Source of the DNA: Terriglobia bacterium
Lineage (GTDB): Bacteria; Acidobacteriota; Terriglobia; Terriglobales; Acidobacteriaceae
Assembly: GCA_020072645.1 (NCBI GenBank)
Contig: JAIQGK010000003.1
Coordinates: forward strand, 558,001-622,000
Direction of reading: 5' to 3'
DNA: 64,000 nucleotides
Shown: positions 63,233 through 63,508 of the stretch, one piece after another
Layout of the letters: every line of letters starts with the position of its first letter
Numbering within the stretch: the stretch's first letter is position 1
Program-made: the position numbers and the translations under genes
The notes under the pieces: model-generated
Database searches by the model: none
The model's input: only the letters and a program-made list of their open reading frames with translations
What the model was told of the DNA's origin: nothing

Positions 63233-63256
63233 GCCGGAACCAACATGGAGGACAGA

Positions 63257-63508
63257 ATGAAAATTGAGATACGTTCCTGCCCCACGTGAGGAAACAACAA
63301 AGCCAAGGTCGCGAGTCTCGTGGCGCTGATTAAAAAACGGCTTGGAATTGATGCCGTGGTTACGCCCGGAAAGACCGGCCAGTTTGAAGTGCTGGCCGAT
63401 GGTCAGACGGTCGTGGAACGCGGCGGCAACTGGTTCACCAGAAGCTTTGGCGCCGGCTATCCTAATCTTAATAGCGTGGTTGATCAACTTGAGAAGCGCC
63501 GCAGCTAA
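63257..63508 (+). CDS. SelT/SelW/SelH (Rdx)-type selenoprotein with in-frame TGA
   Basis: Reading TGA at 63287-63289 as selenocysteine gives an 83-residue protein: MKIEIRSCPTUGNNKAKVAS, then LVALIKKRLGIDAVVTPGKT, GQFEVLADGQTVVERGGNWF and so on to EKRRS. C8-P-T-U11 is the CxxU redox motif, and the rest follows the thioredoxin-like Rdx fold (beta1-CxxU-alpha1, VVTPGKTGQFEVLADG beta3-beta4). ATG 63257 follows GGAGG by five bases, so translation must begin before the TGA. The frame is open on both sides. A plain ORF caller would start at 63320 and lose the active site. Sec machinery genes are not in the window. Alternative: a nonsense mutation of a CxxC gene. Confidence 0.8.
63302..63324 (+). promoter_or_regulatory. 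Possible bacterial SECIS stem-loop
   Basis: GCCAAGG (63302-63308) can pair with CTCGTGGC (63317-63324, with an A-G mismatch and a G-U), loop TCGCGAGTC, centred about 24 bases after the TGA, within the distance range of bacterial SECIS elements. The stem is short, so support is weak. Confidence 0.35.

Follow-up and report, generated by a model that had tools for sequence, protein, structure and literature searches.

A probable Rdx-family (SelW-like) selenoprotein gene with an in-frame UGA in a Terriglobia bacterium

The window, a stretch of 64,000 nucleotides of contig JAIQGK010000003.1 from a Terriglobia bacterium (Acidobacteriota), contains a reading frame that runs for ten codons and then reaches TGA. 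The question raised by this locus is whether the TGA (63287-63289) is a stop or is read as selenocysteine (Sec). All features described here lie on the forward strand. The frame starts with ATG at 63257, is preceded by a likely ribosome binding site, GGAGG (63247-63251), at a spacing of 5 nt, and is closed after 83 codons by TAA (63506-63508). With TGA read as Sec, the gene (63257-63508) yields a product of 83 residues with Sec at position 11, within a CPTU redox motif from Cys8 to Sec11 (63278-63289) that is seen in the translation and in the alignment. A second in-frame ATG is located 12 nt upstream (63245-63247) and overlaps GGAGG; the start at 63257 is favoured because relatives conserve it. 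A gene finder that allows no recoding sees another picture: the mechanical ORF list holds only a truncated GTG frame of 62 aa (63320-63508). The ribosome binding site and ATG ahead of the TGA, as well as the annotation of nothing but a fragment from 63320, had been part of the original prediction and are both present as described. As judged from sequence comparison, the locus very probably encodes a selenoprotein that belongs to the Rdx (SelW-like) family.

The UGA is conserved. TGA occupies the Sec codon in 15 of the 16 distinct genes of the window gene's branch, while the sixteenth (L012, the same gene as L025 of genome G150) has GGA (Gly). L071, for which no homologue was readable, is left out of this count. 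Three genes found elsewhere in the phylum (L081, L082, L084) also have TGA at the Sec codon; left out of that set were five unparsed loci with a TGA listed inside each (L083, L085, L087, L088, L091). A different codon in close relatives had been named beforehand as the sign of a nonsense mutation; such a codon occurs once among the 16, and the other 15 agree with the window gene. A pseudogene, left by a Cys-type Rdx gene after a nonsense mutation, would account for a frame that is broken under the standard code, and the selD gene of this assembly is damaged too (see below). The shared UGA, the conserved hairpin described below and dN/dS values of 0.055-0.127 against the window gene (9 of 15 comparisons, those with computable dS) speak against such an origin and leave it very improbable. 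A code with UGA as Trp was also considered and was ruled out, UGA being a common ordinary stop within the window: TGA ends 19 of the 44 stop-to-stop frames of at least 250 codons, shadow frames counted. The Gly-type gene (L012, 3001-3264) starts with GTG and has two of eight hairpin pairs broken; its genome retains selB and selD.

The pattern of substitutions indicates purifying selection both upstream and downstream of the UGA. Among the 15 UGA genes, codon position 3 takes 453 of 715 pairwise differences upstream and 2913 of 4816 downstream, with the UGA codon and the hairpin codons excluded. When dN/dS is compared over the six frames, the sense frame is lowest in 4 of 4 comparisons (0.10-0.15), and the runner-up is one antisense frame (0.22-0.41). 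These values bear on the proposal that the locus really makes an antisense protein or the fragment begun at the GTG of 63320. The GTG frame is indeed open, and each of the 16 genes compared also has open antisense frames across it, but the sense frame is the one under strongest constraint by dN/dS, the codons upstream of the UGA are constrained too, and a product started at the GTG would lack strand 1 and the CxxU site. This proposal is the least credible of those considered, and the full-length selenoprotein is preferred.

A SECIS element was expected within 63287-63340. A candidate hairpin is located at 63307-63325, with arms at 63307-63314 and 63318-63325 and the loop GUC at 63315-63317. 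In the window gene seven of the eight pairs form, the outermost position being G.G. The stem of eight pairs is complete in 11 of the 15 UGA genes and reduced to seven pairs in the other four, the window gene included. In the branch alignment 96.7% of 120 stem cells are paired, a share reached by 4 of 500 shuffles. Three pairs are altered on both sides (2 of 500) and the covariation score is reached by 0 of 500 shuffles, with the caveat that related sequences may exceed shuffles without any structure. The count of further pair types in this alignment is not above the shuffles (465 of 500 as high). When the hairpin is slid along the alignment, 28-49% of the cells are paired. Synonymous codon choice is constrained at the same place: of the codon pairs that encode the same residue, 374 of 394 are identical within codons 18-23, as compared to 3096 of 5407 in the rest of the gene, and among 73 codon segments 17-22 takes first place. 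The window stretch folded alone (-10.1 kcal/mol) does not stand out from its shuffles (z -0.35), 70 of 200 of which fold as well; the corresponding z values are -1.94, -1.78, -2.30 and -0.43 for L009, L010, L011 and L012. The expected SECIS element is thus backed by covariation and synonymous constraint, but not by the folding energy of the window alone. According to the accessible parts of PMC13188914, bacterial SECIS elements have a loop of 3-9 nt with G in the first two places, a stem of 4-16 bp, a distance of 16-37 nt from the UGA and an energy of -7.5 or lower; the window hairpin, with its loop GUC, seven pairs, 25 nt from UGA to loop and the energy given above, agrees with all four of these rules.

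Similar hairpins are found across the phylum. In 114 of 127 TGA rows (43 + 84 from two sets, with one gene in twice, L086 = L035) the best hairpin is found 14 or 17 nt downstream of the UGA, each having been picked as the best of 14 offsets, a choice that favours pairing. The 114 rows reduce to 70 distinct hairpins with 504 of 560 cells paired, as compared to 29-57% in slid versions, and in all 70 the first loop base is G. The best pair score across the 127 rows is 8 in 56, 7 in 49, 6 in 20 and 5 in 2. Eight pairs are reached by 26 of the 43 rows of the first set versus 29 of 8600 mononucleotide shuffles. In the three Cys-type genes of the phylum the best hairpin has five of eight pairs (3 of 3 genes).

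The original prediction also included an Rdx-type domain that carries Sec in its CxxU motif, and here the family matches of the relatives and the predicted fold agree. The window protein itself misses the gathering score of PF10262 (Rdx) with 18.8 versus 22.6 bits, and is below the cut-offs of the NCBIfam SelWTH models as well. At an E-value of 0.1 or better, PF10262 is matched by 21 of 22 aligned members (best 3.7e-10) and TIGR02174 by 20. A PDB sequence search with the members' profile gave MIEN1 (2ljk) as best match (1.9e-5) and 2oka, 3dex, 2p0g and 2fa8 at 0.036-0.098. Unrelated chains fall between these, namely glycoside hydrolases at 0.004 and a kinase at 0.039. A structure model from five sequences reached pLDDT 76.6 and pTM 0.68; residues 57-66, inside the branch loop, have pLDDT <50. 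In the model, C8-P-T-U11 is placed at the N-terminal end of helix 1, between a strand (3-7) and the helix (12-29). The first 22 Foldseek matches are Rdx-type chains, followed by thioredoxins; the best are 2oka, 3dex, 2fa8, 2ojl and 2p0g. We take 2oka, 3dex, 2ojl and 2obk to be chains of the Rdx family. Mouse SelW is among the matches with a poorer fit (TM 0.57 by query). The model thus supports a predicted Rdx variant of the thioredoxin fold. In another locus (L072, 1498-2313, genome G602) an Rdx-like part with Phe at the Sec position is fused before a methyltransferase domain. MduS was rejected as a relative: the match of L072 to MduS sits in the methyltransferase part and is far below the cut-off. 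A literature search on MduS yielded a review only.

Reading the UGA as Sec depends on the decoding genes, and SelA, SelB, SelC and SelD had been predicted to be encoded outside the window. All four were found above their cut-offs in the genome assembly (6.44 Mb, 42 contigs, 99.14% complete), selD with an internal deletion of 35 codons. A single tRNA-Sec match scores 73.9 bits (family cut-off 47) and ARAGORN calls it tRNA-SeC, giving the anticodon as tca (UCA); the family search is also above cut-off in 5 of 14 control genomes, so that the match is not decisive alone. SelB (9.1e-116) and SelA (4.0e-165) have open frames and were above cut-off in 2 and 1 of 14 control genomes, respectively. SelD is above cut-off as two pieces of one frame, with an in-frame TGA within KAAG-TGA-ASKLSP, presumably the catalytic loop. 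Two formate dehydrogenase genes above cut-off, L110 (contig C9 of the window's genome, G000) and L108 (C7), contain one TGA each; the Sec site, ARV-TGA-HGPTV, could be read in L110 alone. Among the genomes of the class, all 14 with a match to the window protein have selB at E 1e-60 or better. This co-occurrence gives weak support to Sec decoding, because selB is common (286 of 399 overall).

The damage concerns selD (L036/L039, G000 C12:254514-255335), which lacks 105 nt in frame relative to genomes G143 and G386. The gap falls between CGCC repeats, as visible in the G143 copy, and the lost part presumably holds catalytic residues. In the ten other genomes searched selD is always above cut-off, in nine as a single piece spanning the profile and in one (G078) as two pieces. 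The deletion may be real, and an assembly error is equally possible; unless it is such an error, Sec synthesis in this strain may be impaired. The gene could then be genuine and ancestral in a strain in which Sec decoding is failing, the selD core being lost and only a peptide of ten residues being made. The deleted copy is the sole selD above cut-off in this assembly, which fits such a failure, but the SelA and SelB frames are open, tRNA-Sec is present, no other damage was seen in the UGA frames of Rdx, selD and fdhA, and the gap itself may belong to the assembly. We consider this course of events unlikely, though far less so than a pseudogene, and retain a decoded selenoprotein as the preferred reading.

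The gene is patchily distributed. With other Rdx branches included, matches were obtained in 14 of 399 genomes of the class (13 with TGA inside), in 17 of 300 of the family (16 with TGA) and in 5 of 36 of the genus of G070 (4 with TGA). Within the window's own genus, 6 of 9 listed genomes have no match. When 84,980 species were scanned with the window protein, a query that finds close relatives only, four loci came up, all in Acidobacteriota records. A wider profile matched 106 of 396 genomes of the phylum (119 matches by row count). Re-reading the 89 matches without a prior locus gave UGA at the CxxU site in 84 and Cys in 3, with 2 unscored (L185, at a contig start, and L194, with the printed frame YCAY-TGA). 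With UGA at the site in 84 of these 89, the Rdx proteins that this profile finds in the sampled phylum usually have the Sec form. The three Cys-type (CTQC) matches (L202-L204, in G866, G920 and G621) all belong to one family, f31. In a tree of 61 rows, built from only 86 columns and with 18 hand-picked rows from the 89 that were re-read, a branch (98/86; 99% of 200 bootstrap trees) separates the 19 CPTU/GGNW rows from the others. These 19 are possibly a subfamily. An alignment and the tree identify the RGGNWFTRSFGAGYP stretch (63419-63463) as the loop that marks this CPTU branch of Rdx proteins. No operon partner was indicated among stop-to-stop frames of at least 90 codons beside the 16 genes, within flanks of 1.5 kb in most cases and 5 kb at the most; with frames overlapping the gene itself set aside, the most widely shared neighbour frames occur in three genomes of one genus only.

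SelW-like CxxU selenoproteins are established in bacteria, according to the available parts of PMC1088965, PMC1794560 and PMC13188914. The window protein resembles these bacterial SelW-like (SELENOW-like) proteins (PF10262 Rdx / TIGR02174) in CxxU at the start of helix 1, in the thioredoxin-like fold and in a SECIS hairpin behind the UGA, and differs from them in scoring below both family cut-offs, in combining CPTU with an RGGNW-TR-FGAGYP loop and in its own branch. With the Cys-type Rdx proteins it shares the domain and the position of the motif, whereas these have Cys for Sec, pair the hairpin to the lesser extent given above and form a separate branch. MIEN1 (C17orf37), which was also retrieved in the fold search, and mouse SelW are eukaryotic. 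The portion of PMC1794560 at hand reports very few or no Cys homologues of SelW-like proteins in Sec-containing organisms, and the count for the phylum given above accords with this scarcity. A literature search, with most subscription papers outside its reach, found no description of the CPTU/GGNW branch. The window gene is a new member of an established SelW-like kind, possibly of a subfamily of its own.

In the proposed mechanism, SelB carrying Sec-tRNA-Sec would bind the hairpin, and Sec would be inserted at the UGA in competition with termination. In the thioredoxin-like product, Cys8 and Sec11 at the start of helix 1 would act as a thiol/selenol redox site, with targets that are most likely linked to glutathione or peroxide. 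For SelW itself, the accessible text of PMC1088965 describes the function as unclear and an interaction with glutathione as found. Tentatively, and with somewhat more doubt than confidence, the proteins could be considered an unnamed Rdx subfamily, here seen only in Acidobacteriota and marked by CPTU and the loop RGGNW-TR-FGAGYPD, in which Sec is the normal form, the partner is unlike that of SelW, and the SECIS hairpin formed by the same codons largely determines the sequence of helix 1 (AASLAA/VASLVA). Annotation without UGA recoding truncates or misses such genes. The gene illustrates clearly how an RNA signal can shape a coding helix, and its Gly-variant relative, L012, shows the loss of Sec with the SECIS signal decaying together with the codon.
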